Shown one piece after another: positions 13,943 to 29,404 of a DNA stretch of 33,048 nucleotides; within the stretch, counting starts at the first letter, position 1; each line of letters begins with the position of its first letter. Below the pieces are notes generated by a model that saw only the letters and a program-made list of their open reading frames with translations, searched no databases and was not told the DNA's origin. The translations under genes were made by a program, and so were the position numbers. The stretch spans positions 1 to 33,048 of the forward strand of contig JAJZKQ010000007.1 of the NCBI GenBank assembly GCA_021804095.1, given 5' to 3'. The stretch comes from Microcaldota archaeon. Lineage in GTDB: Archaea > Micrarchaeota > Micrarchaeia > Micrarchaeales > CABMGC01.

Positions 13943-15526
13943 ATGATGAAACCCATATCGACGGAGGACACTGGTGTATTGTTGGAATATGATAAACGGG
14001 TAGGAATTCTCATTTTTTCAATACTCCTGGCAGTATCGGTTGCCAGCTCTTTTTATATAACCCCATTCTCAATAGGCGATACCGACCCCTCGACATATGT
14101 GGCAGTGCCTCTTCTTATGCTTCCACTATTCTCATTGTTCATGCTCAAGGAGGAGATAAAGCCTAATACAACAAAGCGTGACATAATGCTAGGGATATCC
14201 ACCTTCGCCCTTCTCGCTGCGATTACTGTATTTCTGAGATATCAGCTTTCCTATCTTTTTCTTAGCTACAGAATAGACATGCTCCTATTCCCTATGCTTA
14301 TAATCTCCTTCGCATTTCTCCTTTTCGGGTCTTCGAACATTCACAAATTCAAGTATATCGCCGTATATTCCATGCTTGCCTCATCTCTAATAGCCGCTCC
14401 CATAATAATGGCAAATTTTGCATTTACAGAATTCAATACACATATAATCTACCTCATTCTGCGGATATTCATACCTGGAATATCACTCATATCACCATTA
14501 ACTGTGGCTACAAACGGATACCAGATAAGCATAGGAGAAACATGTGTGGGGATAGGCATACTTATCTCAATAATCTTATTTCTCATGCCACTAGCATATC
14601 TCTATAACGGAGAAAGGAAGAAGAAATTTCTATGGCTCCTAAGCGCAATAATCATCTTATTCCTGCTCAATATAGGAAGAATGTTCAGCATAGCCTTATT
14701 CTGGCTTCTTTACGGTCCAACAAGCGCCCTGATGGAAGTCCATGTCTTTGCAGGCGTTCTTCTCTTCTATATCTCCATAATACTTATGGTCCTATTATCG
14801 GGAAGATACGGCTTGGAATTAAAAACAGAGAGTCAAAAAAACAGGACTCAAAACAAAGCAGGAAAGGCAAGCAAAACAAAAAGAGCAGCAACCTATTCTG
14901 CATATGGCATAATCATAAGCATACTTATGGCAATAGCATATTTTGCCATGACTTATAACTACTCTTCAGCACTCTACATCTCGCAAATACACCTGTATAC
15001 GCCTTCATATCCCAAATTAACTAGCGAAGGTGCTTATGCAATTGCAGGTTCCATATTGAATCGTTCTGAAACACTTAAAAGCATATCCCTGAGCGGAAAC
15101 TTCAGCGAAATTCTCTCTGTATATGGACAAAATATAAACTACTCAGAGCCTCTAATAGTCTACATGGGCTACTACAAAAACACCGGGCTTCCCATACCTG
15201 TTTTGGGAAGAACAGGGATAAGCAGCATGCATTTCACTAACCAGAAAGGAATCTCCGGAAGTATCTATTATTTAGAATCAAACATGTCCGGATTTCTGGT
15301 GTATCATGCCATAATCCCAGATATAGGGCTAAACGGCTCTTCTGCAATTCCAATTTCAACATATCTGATACTTCCCGCTTCAGAACTAGAAACCTCCGGT
15401 GCATGCACAAATGGGTTTTCATACACCGACTACCTGATTAATATAGCAAATCCTACACTATACAATACCACTTTAAGGCAGCAGCTAAATTCAGGATACT
15501 GCCTTTTCAAAAAGGTGCTATCTTGA
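13943..15526 (+). CDS. Exosortase/archaeosortase-like transmembrane protein with C-terminal external domain
   Basis: 527 residues. Residues about 20-285 hold roughly eight membrane helices. Three sites match the exosortase/archaeosortase family's Cys-Arg-His set, each at a helix end: Cys201 in IGETCVGIGILISI (family: A/E-C-x-G-L/I), Arg246 in FLLNIGRMFSI (family: N-x-x-R) and His267 in EVHVFAGVLLFY. Family members are thought to cut and transfer surface proteins with PEP-CTERM or PGF-CTERM tails. A Lys-rich cytosolic loop (about 295-315) leads to a last helix (320-338) and an external domain of about 190 residues with several N-x-S/T sites. Some bacterial exosortases carry a fused EpsI-type domain in this place; LIVYMGYYKNTGLP could be its counterpart, but that is uncertain. 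The next gene overlaps its stop codon. Confidence 0.75.
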   Translation: MMKPISTEDTGVLLEYDKRVGILIFSILLAVSVASSFYITPFSIGDTDPSTYVAVPLLMLPLFSLFMLKEEIKPNTTKRDIMLGISTFALLAAITVFLRYQLSYLFLSYRIDMLLFPMLIISFAFLLFGSSNIHKFKYIAVYSMLASSLIAAPIIMANFAFTEFNTHIIYLILRIFIPGISLISPLTVATNGYQISIGETCVGIGILISIILFLMPLAYLYNGERKKKFLWLLSAIIILFLLNIGRMFSIALFWLLYGPTSALMEVHVFAGVLLFYISIILMVLLSGRYGLELKTESQKNRTQNKAGKASKTKRAATYSAYGIIISILMAIAYFAMTYNYSSALYISQIHLYTPSYPKLTSEGAYAIAGSILNRSETLKSISLSGNFSEILSVYGQNINYSEPLIVYMGYYKNTGLPIPVLGRTGISSMHFTNQKGISGSIYYLESNMSGFLVYHAIIPDIGLNGSSAIPISTYLILPASELETSGACTNGFSYTDYLINIANPTLYNTTLRQQLNSGYCLFKKVLS

Positions 15527-16506
15527 TATTCGAATTTTCATCCGGAGCTGTGATATTCAGAAAAGACCAAGACGGAAAGATACTTTTTCTCTTATTGGAG
15601 AAAGCAAACGGCGAATATGATCTTCCAAAAGGCCATATAGAAAAAGGCGAGAGTGCTGTAGAGGCTGCCAAAAGGGAGATAACCGAAGAGACAGGATTAT
15701 CGGTAGAATTTATACCCGGATTCTCAATAATGACAAAGTATTTTTTCTACAAAAACAAATCAAAGGTTCTTAAGAAGAATAAGCTATTCCTGGCTGAAGT
15801 ACGTTCATCAAAGGTGACAATCTCCCCTGAACATAAAGGATATTCATGGCTTACTTTTGAAGAAATAACTGAAAAAATAAAATACAAGAACACAAAGACC
15901 CTCTTCAAAGAAGCAAGTTCCTACATAAGAAAGAAGGAATTGATGGACAAGCTTAATTCAGAATATGCAAAGCTGCCTTCTTCTGAGAAAATCTGGAATC
16001 TCAGCAAGAGGCTAGTTCCAGGAGAAGGCCCACTAAACGCTTCAGTAATGCTAGTGGGTCAGGCTCCCGGAAAGAATGAGGACGAATCGCTCAGGCCCTT
16101 CATAGGCAGGTCAGGAAAGCTGCTTTCATCCATGATGCACAAAGCAGGCATAAACAGAAGCGATACCTACATAACAAGCACTGTGCAGTTTTTCCCTCCT
16201 GCAAACAGGCTTCCTACCGAAAACGAGGTAGAGCTCTGTATGCCGTTTCTAATGCGGCAGATTGAGATAATAAAACCCAGTTTCATAATTACCCTAGGGA
16301 GCCTTTCTGGAAAAGTCCTTACCGGAGTAGAAAGCATTGAGAAGGAGCACGGCAGAATCATCAAAAGAAACTCGATTACTTATATGGTCACATATCATCC
16401 TGCAGCGGCCTTAAGGTTCAAAAGAGTGCTGGAGCTCATGTCTGAAGACTTCAAGAAATTCGGAAGAGAGATAAATGCCGGAACTATTGAAATCAATAAG
16501 GAATAA
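15523..16506 (+). CDS. Nudix hydrolase - family 4 uracil-DNA glycosylase fusion
   Basis: 327 residues from a TTG start that overlaps the previous stop; AGGTG eight bases upstream supports it. Residues 1-135 are a Nudix domain with a complete box at 37-59 (GHIEKGES through REITEETGL, pattern GX5EX7REUXEEXGU), most like Ap4A or nucleotide-pool hydrolases. Residues about 145-315 are a family 4-type uracil-DNA glycosylase: GQAPGKNEDE (179-188), PFIGRSG, FFPPANRLPT (223-232), ELCMPFL and YHPAAALR (291-298). In canonical family 4 enzymes four Cys bind a 4Fe-4S cluster. Only Cys239 is left: the N-terminal CxxC is gone and the 'KCRPP' Cys is Phe (QFFPP). The protein would join nucleotide-pool cleaning with uracil removal. 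tRNA-Ile follows 32 bases after the stop. Confidence 0.88.
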   Translation: MIFEFSSGAVIFRKDQDGKILFLLLEKANGEYDLPKGHIEKGESAVEAAKREITEETGLSVEFIPGFSIMTKYFFYKNKSKVLKKNKLFLAEVRSSKVTISPEHKGYSWLTFEEITEKIKYKNTKTLFKEASSYIRKKELMDKLNSEYAKLPSSEKIWNLSKRLVPGEGPLNASVMLVGQAPGKNEDESLRPFIGRSGKLLSSMMHKAGINRSDTYITSTVQFFPPANRLPTENEVELCMPFLMRQIEIIKPSFIITLGSLSGKVLTGVESIEKEHGRIIKRNSITYMVTYHPAAALRFKRVLELMSEDFKKFGREINAGTIEINKE

Positions 16507-19475: not shown

Positions 19476-21194
19476 ATGATAACTGTGGCTAGTGATACTG
19501 ACATCTATTCTGAAGAAAAAGTAAAACATAGGAGCCTACATCTTTATTCTGCAATTGTTCTGATAATTATTCTAGCAATAAGTCTCAGAGCCTTTTTCCT
19601 AATTCGGGGTAAATTTCTGACTGTCGGAACAATGGCTGCCGTTTTAGCAATGAAACAGACTATTGCAAATGGATACGTAATACATCCAAACCCTCTAGCC
19701 AGTTTTCCAAACCACCCATATATATTCCCCGAAACCGGCCTAATCTATTTTGCAGTATATACATACAGGATCTTTCCATTTATTGGGATATTCGGCAGTA
19801 TGTACTTGATAAAAACACTTTTTACCATTCTCGGAGTCATAACCGTCTTCCTCTTCGCGAAGAAGATAACAAAAAATGCGGAGGCAGGCCTTCTCGCATC
19901 ATTGCTTTACGCCACTTCCGAGATAGGAATAACCGCAGAAGCATTCAACAGATGGAAAGGCGATTCATTTGTACCAATACTCCTTTTGTTTTCTGTATTA
20001 ATGCTTCTGCACTTGATAGAAAACAAAAACCATTATAACTCATTTAAAAAAATAGGATTCTTCCTGCTAATCACAGTTCCATTGGTTTTCTCATACTACA
20101 TCTGGAATGGCGGTTTATATGCAACTGCAGCATTCTTCTTCATACTGACTGCACTCATCATATCTAACATAATCCCAGATACTAAGAAACAGGCCCTCGC
20201 GATTATACTAATCTTCGCAGCAGCTTGGACAGCATTCGTCTTCTTTCATCTAAACAACGCAATAAGTCTAGGTCCCATAAACTTAACTCCCCATCTTTTC
20301 ATAGAAGACATACTTCAGCTTCTAGGGCAGCTCGAATCCGCTTATTATCTTCCGTCTCTGATATACCATACCTATCTCTATTATATATGGGTTTTAGCAG
20401 GATTTCTGTCGACCTTTGGCTTGTTAATAATAACCATCAGGTTATACAAGCCTTCTTTAAAGGACAAAAATCAAAAAAGCGCATACACTGCAATACTGGC
20501 AATGCTTTTGTTTGGGATACCATTTGCAATTATTCAATATAGATTCAATTCATTAGTATATCTTCCAATCTCGATAATTGCAGGATGTTCAATAGCATTA
20601 ATTCCAGATATCTGGAAACGGAACATGAAAATCTTCATACCTTCCATAATCACAATAGTCTTAATATTTGCAATATACCAGATAATCTCAACGCCACAAT
20701 ACACCGGCATGAGCCAACAGTTCCACCGCGAACTTTACTGGATTGTTAACAATACACCTAAAAACGCAACATTCCTGAATTTTGATGGTGATGGTACCGC
20801 CATACAATACTGGGCAAACAGGACCACATACAGCGATACGAACTACGCCGATAATCAAACTGTAGTAAATGACTATTACTCTTTTCTTTATGCACGTGCA
20901 GGAAATTTCTCATATCTAAACCAGATAAAACCAGACTATTTGCTTATCCATCAAGTTCCTTCGATAAACAATGATTACAACAGATCATTCAACGGAAGTA
21001 ATATCCAGTATCTGATAGAATGGACAAGATCCCCACACCCCAACTTCTATTATGACGGAGTACTCTTCAATCTTGTTTATGCTAATTTCACTCCAGAATA
21101 CATAAACAACGGTACTATCCTATTCCGGTTATTTTACATGAATGAGAGCGAAGTTGCAAAATTATTGAAGGTGAACAACAAAAATTACACCTGA
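19476..21194 (+). CDS. STT3/AglB-like GT-C membrane protein, divergent
   Basis: 572 residues. About 12 membrane helices (27-405) are followed by a C-terminal external domain. The segment ELYWIVNNTPKNATFLNFDGDG, then IQYWANRTTYSD (about 420-454), aligns with the archaeal oligosaccharyltransferase region 'WLxxNTPxxAxxLSWWDYGYWI..xxNRTTxxDN', but the signature WWDYG is FDGDG here. The first external loop, which in AglB carries a metal-binding Asp after helix 1, reads FLTVGTMAAVLAMK with no Asp; a GDSF (162-165) could stand for the second acidic motif. It is therefore a GT-C protein of STT3 descent with changed active-site residues: a diverged transferase with another acceptor, or inactive. A sequon-rich surface protein lies 71 bases downstream. 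Confidence 0.78.
   Translation: MITVASDTDIYSEEKVKHRSLHLYSAIVLIIILAISLRAFFLIRGKFLTVGTMAAVLAMKQTIANGYVIHPNPLASFPNHPYIFPETGLIYFAVYTYRIFPFIGIFGSMYLIKTLFTILGVITVFLFAKKITKNAEAGLLASLLYATSEIGITAEAFNRWKGDSFVPILLLFSVLMLLHLIENKNHYNSFKKIGFFLLITVPLVFSYYIWNGGLYATAAFFFILTALIISNIIPDTKKQALAIILIFAAAWTAFVFFHLNNAISLGPINLTPHLFIEDILQLLGQLESAYYLPSLIYHTYLYYIWVLAGFLSTFGLLIITIRLYKPSLKDKNQKSAYTAILAMLLFGIPFAIIQYRFNSLVYLPISIIAGCSIALIPDIWKRNMKIFIPSIITIVLIFAIYQIISTPQYTGMSQQFHRELYWIVNNTPKNATFLNFDGDGTAIQYWANRTTYSDTNYADNQTVVNDYYSFLYARAGNFSYLNQIKPDYLLIHQVPSINNDYNRSFNGSNIQYLIEWTRSPHPNFYYDGVLFNLVYANFTPEYINNGTILFRLFYMNESEVAKLLKVNNKNYT
20600..20624. repeat. 25-bp exact repeat containing a 16-bp palindrome (copy 1)
   Basis: These 25 bases are identical to 22620-22644. 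They include the perfect palindrome TTCCAGATATCTGGAA at 20602-20617. This copy lies inside the STT3-like gene and is read as IPDIWKRN. Confidence 0.9.
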
Positions 21195-21265: not shown

Positions 21266-22852
21266 ATGACAAATAAGAATCTCATAATCGCATCAGTTGG
21301 AATAATTGTCATAATTGCTGTTATAATAGCTGCCGTTTCACTTACTTCTTCAGTACCAAAAACATCTACCACTTCAACAACCTCTCCCGGAACTACGTCA
21401 GTTAATACTTCTGTACAAAATCAACAGATATCCACATCAGTCCTGCTTACTGATCCCCCAGTAGTTCCAAATGGCACAACCTCCCTTCTGATACATTACT
21501 CTTCAATAAGCATACATTCAATATCTTCTAATGGCTGGCTGTCATCAAACACACAAGGAAACATAAACCTGCTGAATCTCACCAACACCTCAGTAGTTCT
21601 CGCAAATCTCAACATCTCGCCAGATTCCAGCCCTAATCTTGTAAGGTTCTATATCTCAAATGCAAGCATAACAATAAACGGAACAGTGTACAATGTCACA
21701 GTTCCAAGCGCAGAGGTTACGGCTGAAATTTCTAACTACACCAGCGCAAATGCTTATCTGACTTCAAGTATACTAATGCAGTTCTCTCCTACTATAGTTA
21801 CTATATATACTAACACAACTCCAGACTTCATACTTGTTCCTTCAGTAAAGGCTGTGGTAGTCGGGAATGTATTGGCTGGAAAAAGGCCTCAGGAAGGCGA
21901 AATGCTTCCATTGACTAAGGCTGAAGACAGATCTCTCAAAGATGCAACTCCAAATATAACAATTACCAATGCTTCGATATCCCAGTCGAATAACACTACC
22001 ACCGTATCGTTCACTGTTACTGACAACTCAAATTATTCTGTAAACCTCATGCATGCAAGCATAAATGGGGAGGAGAACATAAGCATCAACACCACAGCGG
22101 CATCTGCTGTTGCGAATTCAATAACAAGAAGGGTAGACGACATAGTAAACCAGATTCAAAACAATACAGAAAACGCATCAATCAATTCTACTGACAAAAC
22201 TCAAGTAAACGAAAGCAGTTCAGGGTATAACACCCATACTGACATAAACGAATCGACAAACGCAAGCACTAAGTATCCTGCTGAAAATTCCTCAGCAAGT
22301 TCCTCTGTAAACATATCAATTACAGGCAACGGCAAGCTAATAACTCCTGCAACAAACCAGCGAATATCATCCACATTCAAAACCGGATTAGGGATTGGAA
22401 AATTCAACAACTACAACATAGAACTTTCAGACAGGCTTGAAAATGACATGAACGGGATAGCAGGAAACTCAACATTAAGCACTTTTGTAAACAACTCAAT
22501 AATGAACGGCACATTAAATACAACTTCTTTCAGAAATGAGCTATCCGATAAAATAGAAGGCTTCATATCGCAAAGATATAAAGAAAACGAGGCCTTCCAG
22601 AATCATAATCATGTAATACAATTCCAGATATCTGGAAACGGAACCCTACAGTTACCTTTCTCAGAAGACCAATTTGCAAATAATCTGGGATATGCGCTTC
22701 AACCTGGACAATCCCATACCTTCACATTTATTGGAAGGATGACCCTTGCAAATGGACGTATGCAGATATCACTCATTCCTGGGCAGAATTATACTCTAAA
22801 TCTCCAGGGAGACATGGGTGCGAGGGCAGAGGCAAATCTCACTGCAAGATAA
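21266..22852 (+). CDS. Sequon-rich surface protein, DUF4382-like
   Basis: 528 residues. An N-terminal hydrophobic helix (about 5-28) acts as membrane anchor or signal, followed by a Thr/Ser-rich stalk (30-55). Residues about 57-200 resemble the DUF4382 domain: STSVLLTDPPVVPNGTTSLL, HSISSNGW, INLLNLTN, SITINGTVYNVTVPS and VPSVKAVVVGNV. The rest is Asn/Ser/Thr-rich, and about thirty N-x-S/T sites are spread through the chain, so heavy N-glycosylation outside the cell is likely. There is no C-terminal membrane helix or sorting-type tail. It follows the STT3-like gene by 71 bases, and the two may be functionally linked. Its role is unknown; cell-surface or adhesion functions are possible. Confidence 0.75.
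   Translation: MTNKNLIIASVGIIVIIAVIIAAVSLTSSVPKTSTTSTTSPGTTSVNTSVQNQQISTSVLLTDPPVVPNGTTSLLIHYSSISIHSISSNGWLSSNTQGNINLLNLTNTSVVLANLNISPDSSPNLVRFYISNASITINGTVYNVTVPSAEVTAEISNYTSANAYLTSSILMQFSPTIVTIYTNTTPDFILVPSVKAVVVGNVLAGKRPQEGEMLPLTKAEDRSLKDATPNITITNASISQSNNTTTVSFTVTDNSNYSVNLMHASINGEENISINTTAASAVANSITRRVDDIVNQIQNNTENASINSTDKTQVNESSSGYNTHTDINESTNASTKYPAENSSASSSVNISITGNGKLITPATNQRISSTFKTGLGIGKFNNYNIELSDRLENDMNGIAGNSTLSTFVNNSIMNGTLNTTSFRNELSDKIEGFISQRYKENEAFQNHNHVIQFQISGNGTLQLPFSEDQFANNLGYALQPGQSHTFTFIGRMTLANGRMQISLIPGQNYTLNLQGDMGARAEANLTAR
22620..22644. repeat. 25-bp exact repeat containing a 16-bp palindrome (copy 2)
   Basis: Identical to 20600-20624, with the palindrome TTCCAGATATCTGGAA at 22622-22637. 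This copy lies in the DUF4382-like gene and is read in a different frame (FQISGNGT). Confidence 0.9.
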
Positions 22853-27532: not shown

Positions 27533-29404
27533 ATGAGGACACTTCTAAAATACTCTGCGTTTTTGATGATTGCCGCATTCTTTTTAGGCACTGTGAGTGG
27601 ATACACTACACAGATACATGCTCCTGCTGTTCTTCTAAGCGAGAACCAGGGAGTGCTCACTGTAATACAGCTTAATCTGACTCAGGGCAATGGCAATGTG
27701 TCAATAAGCGGCCCATCAAAGGTCGGGAATTCAACTCTTCAGTCAGCTATTACGGCAGCAAACTACGCCTCAAAATATCTAGGAGTGAACGAATCCAACT
27801 ACAATTTCTCGTATACAATAGAGGACAATGGCTCAGATGTCTCAGGCCCTAGCGGTGGTCTTGCATTAACCCTCCTCGCAATCTCCGCCCTGGAGCATAC
27901 ACAACTTCGCGGAAATTTCACGGTTACCGGAACCATCTCTCCTTCCGGCCTGGTAGGACAGGTAGGCGGAGTATATGACAAACTTAACGCGGCAAAGAGA
28001 TACGGAATGAGATTCGCACTGATTCCTTCAGCCTCGCAGCAGAGCATAGAATATCTCATCTACTACATAGCGCAGCAGGAATTCAGGATTCCCGTGGTAG
28101 AGGTATCAAACGCATCGCAGGCACTTCCTTATGCTACAGATAAATATACTCCAAAGATAACTCCGCTAGCACTTAATTTCTCAAGCGACTACAAGCTCAA
28201 AGGTCTGCCCATGGCTCCTGTAAACTGCAGCGATTGCAACATGAGCTATTTCAGGCAGCTCATCAACTTCACATTCGGAATGCTCTCTAATTCCACAAAC
28301 CTGATATCCGGAAACCTGAGTGTTGTAAAACCCCAGATCGACTCACAGCTCAGAATCTATGAAAACATATCCGGAAAAGGATATCTATATCAGGGAGCAG
28401 ATCTCGCGTTCCTGCAATATCCTACTGTGTTCACTCTGATGAACTCTGGCAATTACAGCGTTCAAGGCGCAAATAATATCTTCAATAATGTATATTCGTA
28501 CTGTTCTTCATTGACGCCTCCAAATATGACCACTGCCAATTACGAATATGTAGTCGGAGGGCAATTAAGGCAGGAATGGGCAATGCAAAATCTGGCAGAG
28601 ATACATTCATTTATAAACGCATCAAACACAACAGACGATGTTATCTTTGGCCTAAACAATATAGCTCCATCATATGCATGGTGCAGAAGCACTTCTGAGA
28701 TGTATCACATAGCAGGAGAGATAGGAGGAACTCCAATGGGCTACTCTTCAAAACTCAAATCGGAAGCACTGGCAGCGATAGACAGGGCAAACGCTTCAGG
28801 CACAGCTGTACCTTTATATCTTCTTGCAGCAGAATCCGCATATAACTCAAGCCAATATCCTGCAGCCATTTTTGGTGCGGACTATTCTGTCTCTTTCAGC
28901 GCAAATGTAAATCCTTCAATAAACAACACCGAATTGTTGTCCATGATAAATGCAAACGCTGCAAATTCGACATATGGCATATGGTCATCAGAATTTGCCA
29001 ATTCTGCGATGTTTGCAGCATACCAGGCAAACCTCACGGGAGGCAACGAAACATATAATCTTACAAGCGCATATGTAACATCGGAGCTTGCTGCGAATCT
29101 TGCAAATGCAGAAGAGGAGACAGCATCTGGCCTTGTTCCTATAAATGAAAGCATTGCAAACGTGCTCACCCAAAACACGCAGACTGCAACCACACAACCT
29201 GAAAACAGCACAGCCATAACCTCTATAGAATACCAACTCAATCAGATCTATTCCGTGCTTCTGATATTGGTTATCATAGTCGCAATACTCGCCCTGATAC
29301 TCTTCTTCATATTGATAAGGCTATTCAGGCTTGGAAATGAGAATATTCGGAACACTGCCAGAAATACCAACTCCAGGGCCGCAAGCCAGAAAAGGAAGGT
29401 GTAA
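27533..29404 (+). CDS. Extracytoplasmic Lon-like (S16) serine protease, COG1750-like
   Basis: 623 residues. A signal peptide or anchor (about 4-23, LKYSAFLMIAAFFLGTVSG) is followed by a Lon-type proteolytic domain (about 25-200). The Ser-Lys dyad is visible: Ser107 in DVSGPSGGLALTLL and Lys150 in GLVGQVGGVYDKLNAAKRYGM. No ATPase domain is present. A long Asn/Ser-rich helical region with many N-x-S/T sites follows, then one membrane helix (about 578-602) and a basic cytosolic tail ending SQKRKV. The protein is therefore a membrane-bound, outward-facing protease, like the archaeal family COG1750. It likely processes surface proteins. The HIT gene starts three bases after its stop. Confidence 0.87.
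   Translation: MRTLLKYSAFLMIAAFFLGTVSGYTTQIHAPAVLLSENQGVLTVIQLNLTQGNGNVSISGPSKVGNSTLQSAITAANYASKYLGVNESNYNFSYTIEDNGSDVSGPSGGLALTLLAISALEHTQLRGNFTVTGTISPSGLVGQVGGVYDKLNAAKRYGMRFALIPSASQQSIEYLIYYIAQQEFRIPVVEVSNASQALPYATDKYTPKITPLALNFSSDYKLKGLPMAPVNCSDCNMSYFRQLINFTFGMLSNSTNLISGNLSVVKPQIDSQLRIYENISGKGYLYQGADLAFLQYPTVFTLMNSGNYSVQGANNIFNNVYSYCSSLTPPNMTTANYEYVVGGQLRQEWAMQNLAEIHSFINASNTTDDVIFGLNNIAPSYAWCRSTSEMYHIAGEIGGTPMGYSSKLKSEALAAIDRANASGTAVPLYLLAAESAYNSSQYPAAIFGADYSVSFSANVNPSINNTELLSMINANAANSTYGIWSSEFANSAMFAAYQANLTGGNETYNLTSAYVTSELAANLANAEEETASGLVPINESIANVLTQNTQTATTQPENSTAITSIEYQLNQIYSVLLILVIIVAILALILFFILIRLFRLGNENIRNTARNTNSRAASQKRKV

Follow-up and report, generated by a model that had tools for sequence, protein, structure and literature searches.

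Here we describe an STT3/AglB-like paralogue encoded in a 33,048-nucleotide stretch of archaeal DNA (hereafter the window; Table 1). Judging from its motifs, this old AglB paralogue has probably lost oligosaccharyltransferase (OST) catalysis. In our preferred reading, to which we give an even chance, it would be a non-catalytic OST paralogue (a pseudo-OST) that works alongside AglB on surface proteins rich in sequons.

Table 1 Features of the paralogue and its neighbour (window coordinates).
Feature	Position	Strand	Basis
STT3/AglB-like paralogue, 572 aa	19476..21194	+	ORF, AlphaFold/Foldseek fold, hhalign to long AglB
Gly51, replaces loop 1 metal/acceptor Asp (A. fulgidus AglB Asp47)	19626..19628	+	MAFFT, hhalign; role PMC8342417
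Ala154, replaces loop 2 Arg (A. fulgidus AglB Arg154)	19935..19937	+	Alignments; role PMC7226087
Asp163, retained second acidic position of loop 2 DXD (WKGD; resident AglB YRGD)	19962..19964	+	Alignments
Trp210 of WNGG, invariant in the order's short and long AglBs	20103..20105	+	Alignments
Merged loops 4/5, residues 261-300	20256..20375	+	AlphaFold model, MAFFT, hhalign
Arg356 of RFNSL, retained	20541..20543	+	Alignment
FDGDG (residues 436-440) at WWDYG position	20781..20795	+	Gapless hhalign against long-AglB profile
Sequon-rich exported DUF4382-like protein, 528 aa, one N-terminal membrane anchor; neighbour, conserved in genus	21266..22852	+

Overall fold of the paralogue

The reading frame is present and open throughout. 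Its product is composed of ~11 predicted membrane helices and an external C-terminal domain (residues ~406-572). Searches of Pfam and NCBIfam, and of the PDB by sequence alone, returned no match. It falls below the cut-off of the Pfam STT3 model (PF02516), for which a long AglB of the same genome itself reaches only E 0.002. An AlphaFold model built from seven sequences (pLDDT 72.6, pTM 0.74) was compared with the PDB using Foldseek and matched human STT3B (2.3e-9), C. elegans DPY19 (5.3e-9) and A. fulgidus AglB (1e-7), with STT3A and yeast STT3 also among the matches. Using hhalign, the paralogue aligned to a profile of long AglBs from related genomes with probability 100 and E 1.3e-45. The fold matches and the profile match together identify it as an STT3/AglB homologue with the GT-C fold of STT3.

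AglB in the same genome and order

The genome (G000) also encodes canonical-length AglBs, with copies on contigs C1 and C14. Contig C14 (4870 bases; L002) matches, at 100% identity, a contig from the sister species G003 and is probably mis-binned, with a sister-species origin. We therefore took the C1 copy as the resident AglB, the C14 copy having been found first. The two proteins, 94% identical, carry EPD (loop 1), YRGD (loop 2) and TIQE (loop 5), and read LWPDG in place of WWDYG. WPDGS is found in 19/19 long AglBs of our alignment A4 and in the AglBs of the order fetched with PF02516. Other Micrarchaeota orders have, where the motif is readable, WWDYG and FEFDPYYY-type loops. At these motifs the order's long AglBs align with human STT3A without gaps, such that W-W-D-Y-G corresponds to L-W-P-D-G and D-N-E to R-G-D. 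One metal ligand is thereby lost in the order's canonical AglBs (the first Asp of the second DXD is Arg). These enzymes are presumably active, and motif rules drawn from other archaea may therefore fail here. This order-wide WPDGS/RGD AglB (L001, L177, alignment A4) is possibly more interesting than the paralogue itself.

An earlier note on this DNA, made from the sequence, had proposed that WWDYG has become FDGDG in the paralogue, perhaps with a new acceptor, and had advised a search for a canonical AglB elsewhere in the genome. That search succeeded: the AglBs found have the loop 1 Asp, TIQE and WPDGS, and we rejected the idea that the genome relies on the paralogue as its only OST, one with a new acceptor. 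The change to FDGDG is present but, since the resident canonical AglB has LWPDG, the loss of WWDYG is not special to the paralogue. Set against the order-wide baseline, most of its motif loss is common to the order; what is peculiar to it is the loss of the remaining Trp and of the loop 1 Asp.

To assess the acceptor, we collapsed proteins drawn from a subset of loci to one per family, and classed them as exported/membrane or cytosolic by a simple hydropathy rule. N-x-T exceeded T-x-N in exported and membrane families (230/114 = 2.02; bootstrap 95% range 1.40-2.84), with parity in cytosolic families (67/67 = 1.00). The uncollapsed counts of N-x-T versus T-x-N were 839/259 in membrane proteins and 90/87 in cytosolic ones. 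The ratio of N-x-S to S-x-N did not separate the classes (1.35 exported/membrane versus 1.23 cytosolic). At least N-x-T is thus still favoured in the exported proteins of organisms with a WPDGS AglB. Because this enrichment persists in an order whose AglBs also lack WWDYG, loss of WWD need not mean a new acceptor, and that proposal is not supported.

Molecular details of the paralogue motifs

In known OSTs, the acceptor Asn is contacted by Asp47/Asp56 and the Glu of TIXE, and WWD binds the Ser/Thr of the sequon (PMC7226087). The metal ligands of A. fulgidus AglB are Asp47, Asp161 and His163, together with Glu360 of TIXE via a water (PMC8342417). All motif positions in the paralogue lie in gapless stretches except loop 5, which is weakly aligned. 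The placement of FDGDG is anchored by the long-AglB profile, itself gapless against the WWDYG of human STT3A. The two nearest species have FNGDG at this position, and FDGDG, or Asp437, is therefore not fixed. In the second DXD, the first position is Lys161 (Arg in the order's AglB) and Asp163 is kept at the second.

Before loop 5, the paralogue is without about 65-80 residues of long AglB, corresponding to two membrane helices; this two-helix deficit was counted on the AlphaFold model. Within loop 5, where the alignment is weak, neither MAFFT nor hhalign placed an acid at the TIXE position. Glu287 of LGQLE lies near that position, unaligned, and is a possible remnant of TIXE. We take Arg356 to be equivalent to the donor-phosphate Arg375 of PglB. 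The earlier note had described a GT-C, STT3-like protein lacking both WWDYG and the loop 1 Asp; the fold matches and the alignment of FDGDG and Gly51 bear this out. It had allowed that the canonical acids or WWDYG might have equivalents elsewhere in the chain; none was found along the paralogue by multiple and profile alignment.

A degenerate clade of short AglBs

Short relatives of the paralogue were found in 11/98 related genomes in a first search, and in 13/295 genomes in a wider draw across the phylum, all within two families of one order. The contigs were scanned with a 6-row alignment; relatives on named contigs belong to Candidatus Micrarchaeota, bar one labelled only 'bacterium'. In the tree, the paralogue falls within a degenerate clade of nine short members from two families (support 100/99). 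Four motif-complete short AglBs (L010, L011, L114 and L115) form a separate group in the rooted tree (89/81), and a possible sister grouping of the two short groups has support 71/32, long branches making the fine placement uncertain. Both groups are without the same region of about two membrane helices. From Trp210 to loop 5 there are 64 residues in the motif-complete short proteins and 141-157 in long AglBs; the paralogue has 77 if Glu287 marks loop 5 and about 91 if the MAFFT column does. Wherever a member of the degenerate clade occurs, the genome also encodes a long AglB, which is split into two pieces in the fragmentary G002. In G096, a second, more diverged relative of 481 aa (L037:2819-4261) adjoins the short paralogue.

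Across the nine clade members, the position of Asp47 is occupied by G, G, G, E, E, N, N, E and Q. The Trp of WPDG is absent in 9/9, and an LGQLE-like Glu is present in 5/9. We searched the alignment for a replacement catalytic residue or acid conserved solely in the degenerate clade and found no clear one. The G/E/N/Q variation at the loop 1 acid is more consistent with lost catalysis than with retuning of the active site. Because three of the nine members have Glu in loop 1, weak or altered catalysis in the clade is possible.

Compared with an 87%-identical orthologue, the paralogue has a dN/dS of 0.09-0.11 overall, and AglB of the same species pair has 0.05. Per-segment values, which rest on small numbers, are 0.048 for the C-terminal domain, 0.048 for residues 255-307 (loops 4/5) and 0.15-0.22 for residues 149-254; residues 467-519 show zero amino-acid changes. 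The outward-facing side is thus more constrained. This clear purifying selection indicates that the paralogue is not a pseudogene. In the sister-species orthologue (L033:1163-1300), the first membrane helix is not preceded by an ATG, GTG or TTG start, and the gene may use an unusual start codon or encode a shortened protein.

Gene neighbourhood

In the window, the paralogue is flanked by an Nramp transporter on one side and, on the other, by the DUF4382-like protein, which contains 18 NxT and 14 NxS. PF14321 (DUF4382) did not match this neighbour itself but matched 5/8 scanned homologues (best 1.9e-8). A DUF4382 protein of Haloferax volcanii, HVO_1030, is listed with AglB-dependent glycans (PMC8241124). 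Three species of the genus share the arrangement in which the paralogue is followed by the DUF4382-like protein. In the most distant member, G076, the DUF4382-like homologue is about 1.6 kb off, divergent, and 48% identical in its best segment. The suggestion that the paralogue is dedicated to its neighbour is thus supported only in part: the neighbour's family is multi-copy and occurs in 95/98 genomes, and in most other genomes the paralogue is sited elsewhere. In G031 it lies between a group comprising AglB and two glycosyltransferase-like genes on one side and an S-layer-like protein on the other, and in G030 it is near nucleotide-sugar genes. A fixed pair across the family was rejected on account of the multi-copy neighbour family and of an archease-exosortase-Nudix block that occurs without the paralogue.

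This block is conserved across the family. In the window it includes an exosortase/archaeosortase-family protein with an extra C-terminal part (13943-15526) and a protein (15523-16506) that reads as a fusion of a Nudix domain with a family-4-like uracil-DNA glycosylase; a full-length homologue of the fusion was present in 7/7 genomes checked. Downstream, positions 27533-29404 encode an exported 623-aa protein with 13 NxT versus 3 TxN and, again by reading, a possible Lon-like protease domain.

Possible functions of the paralogue

As a pseudo-OST, the paralogue would still hold a substrate, most likely an acceptor segment of a surface glycoprotein bound via the external C-terminal domain. Lipid-linked glycan might be bound through the retained Trp210/Arg356 side. 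The protein would then assist the working AglB in glycosylating sequon-rich surface proteins, whether as an accessory partner or as a presenting factor, with the adjoining DUF4382-like protein its likely client within the genus. Against such a role, the gene neighbourhood varies among genomes.

The near-level Foldseek scores of DPY19 and STT3 raise another reading, in which the paralogue is an active GT-C enzyme that needs neither the metal nor the N-x-S/T pocket, for example a single-sugar transferase with a lipid-phosphate donor, like DPY19 or the protein O-mannosyltransferases. Two members of the short-family alignment match Pfam Dpy19 weakly (best 2.9e-5), and purifying selection would also suit an active enzyme. 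DPY19 has its catalytic acid in loop 1, and we know of no metal-free GT-C enzyme that does not retain this acid. In the paralogue, however, it is Gly, it is not kept across the clade, and no clade-only replacement acid was found; we regard this reading as unlikely. A weak or specialized canonical OST, its site rebuilt from Asp163, Glu86 or Glu287 and still acting on N-x-S/T, would accord with the retention of Asp163, the proximity of Glu287 to the loop 5 position and the existence of motif-complete short relatives. It is rather less likely still, because the Asn-contacting Asp56/Asp47 is missing and the TIXE Glu cannot be aligned in the paralogue (contacts, PMC7226087), and because the LGQLE-like Glu is confined to part of the clade.

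The varying location of the gene, here between Nramp and DUF4382-like genes, might instead point outside glycosylation, to a GT-C scaffold for lipid handling, for assembly of the neighbouring protein or for attachment. This is improbable given that constraint is strongest in the C-terminal domain, whose homologue in AglB is the acceptor-binding part, and that several relatives have glycosylation or S-layer genes in their vicinity. Motif loss and an ATG start that is not kept in the sister species could also suggest a decaying pseudogene. That we rejected as highly improbable in view of dN/dS values of 0.05-0.2 along the chain and the long retention of extended open frames across two families (nine genomes). 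A bolder and doubtful scenario is that the order rebuilt its OST acceptor pocket (WPDGS, a one-Asp second DXD, still N-x-S/T) and that this lineage yielded a metal-free GT-C paralogue modifying or presenting a dedicated DUF4382-type protein by an undescribed mechanism.

Comparison with known systems

With a whole order whose AglB is without WWDYG but whose exported proteins keep the sequon bias, the necessity of WWD becomes directly testable, and the retained, motif-poor paralogue is a candidate for a prokaryotic pseudo-OST. Annotation by motif overlooks the paralogue as well as the WPDGS AglB, and the standard STT3 model, used at its cut-off, fails for the genome of the window. In the open-access literature, we found no paper naming WPDG with oligosaccharyltransferase; just two papers contain Micrarchaeota and AglB together, and each mentions Micrarchaeota once. 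Because the search covered open-access papers only, this absence is weak evidence of novelty.

The paralogue resembles A. fulgidus AglB-L (GT66; PF02516; PDB 7e9s, 3wak and 5gmy) in its GT-C fold, its external C-terminal domain, the NTPxNAT...GTxIQYWANRT context of WWDYG and the equivalent of Arg356. By contrast, it is without the loop 1 Asp, a recognized TIXE and WWD, has ~two fewer membrane helices and scores below every family cut-off. Its closest functional relatives are the order's long AglBs (C1 and C14), with which it shares the gapless xxxDG variant and the [RK]GD of loop 2. Those proteins, however, keep EPD, TIQE and WPDGS, are about 740-920 aa in length and carry an extra C-terminal ~180 aa. 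The motif-complete short AglBs are short like the paralogue and miss the same region, but retain the loop 1 Asp, RG[DE], TIAE or SIIE, and W[DPQ][DE]GS. The DPY19 C-mannosyltransferase (PDB 7zlg) has a similar GT-C fold, recovered here by Foldseek, whereas its loop 1 catalytic acid has no counterpart in the paralogue (Gly51, with no acid conserved across the clade), leaving C-mannosylation unsupported. A. fulgidus also encodes two short paralogues, AglB-S1 and AglB-S2 (591 and 593 aa), beside a long AglB in one genome (PMC3703281); they parallel the present protein in being short beside a long AglB, but keep WWDYG and a DK-type motif.
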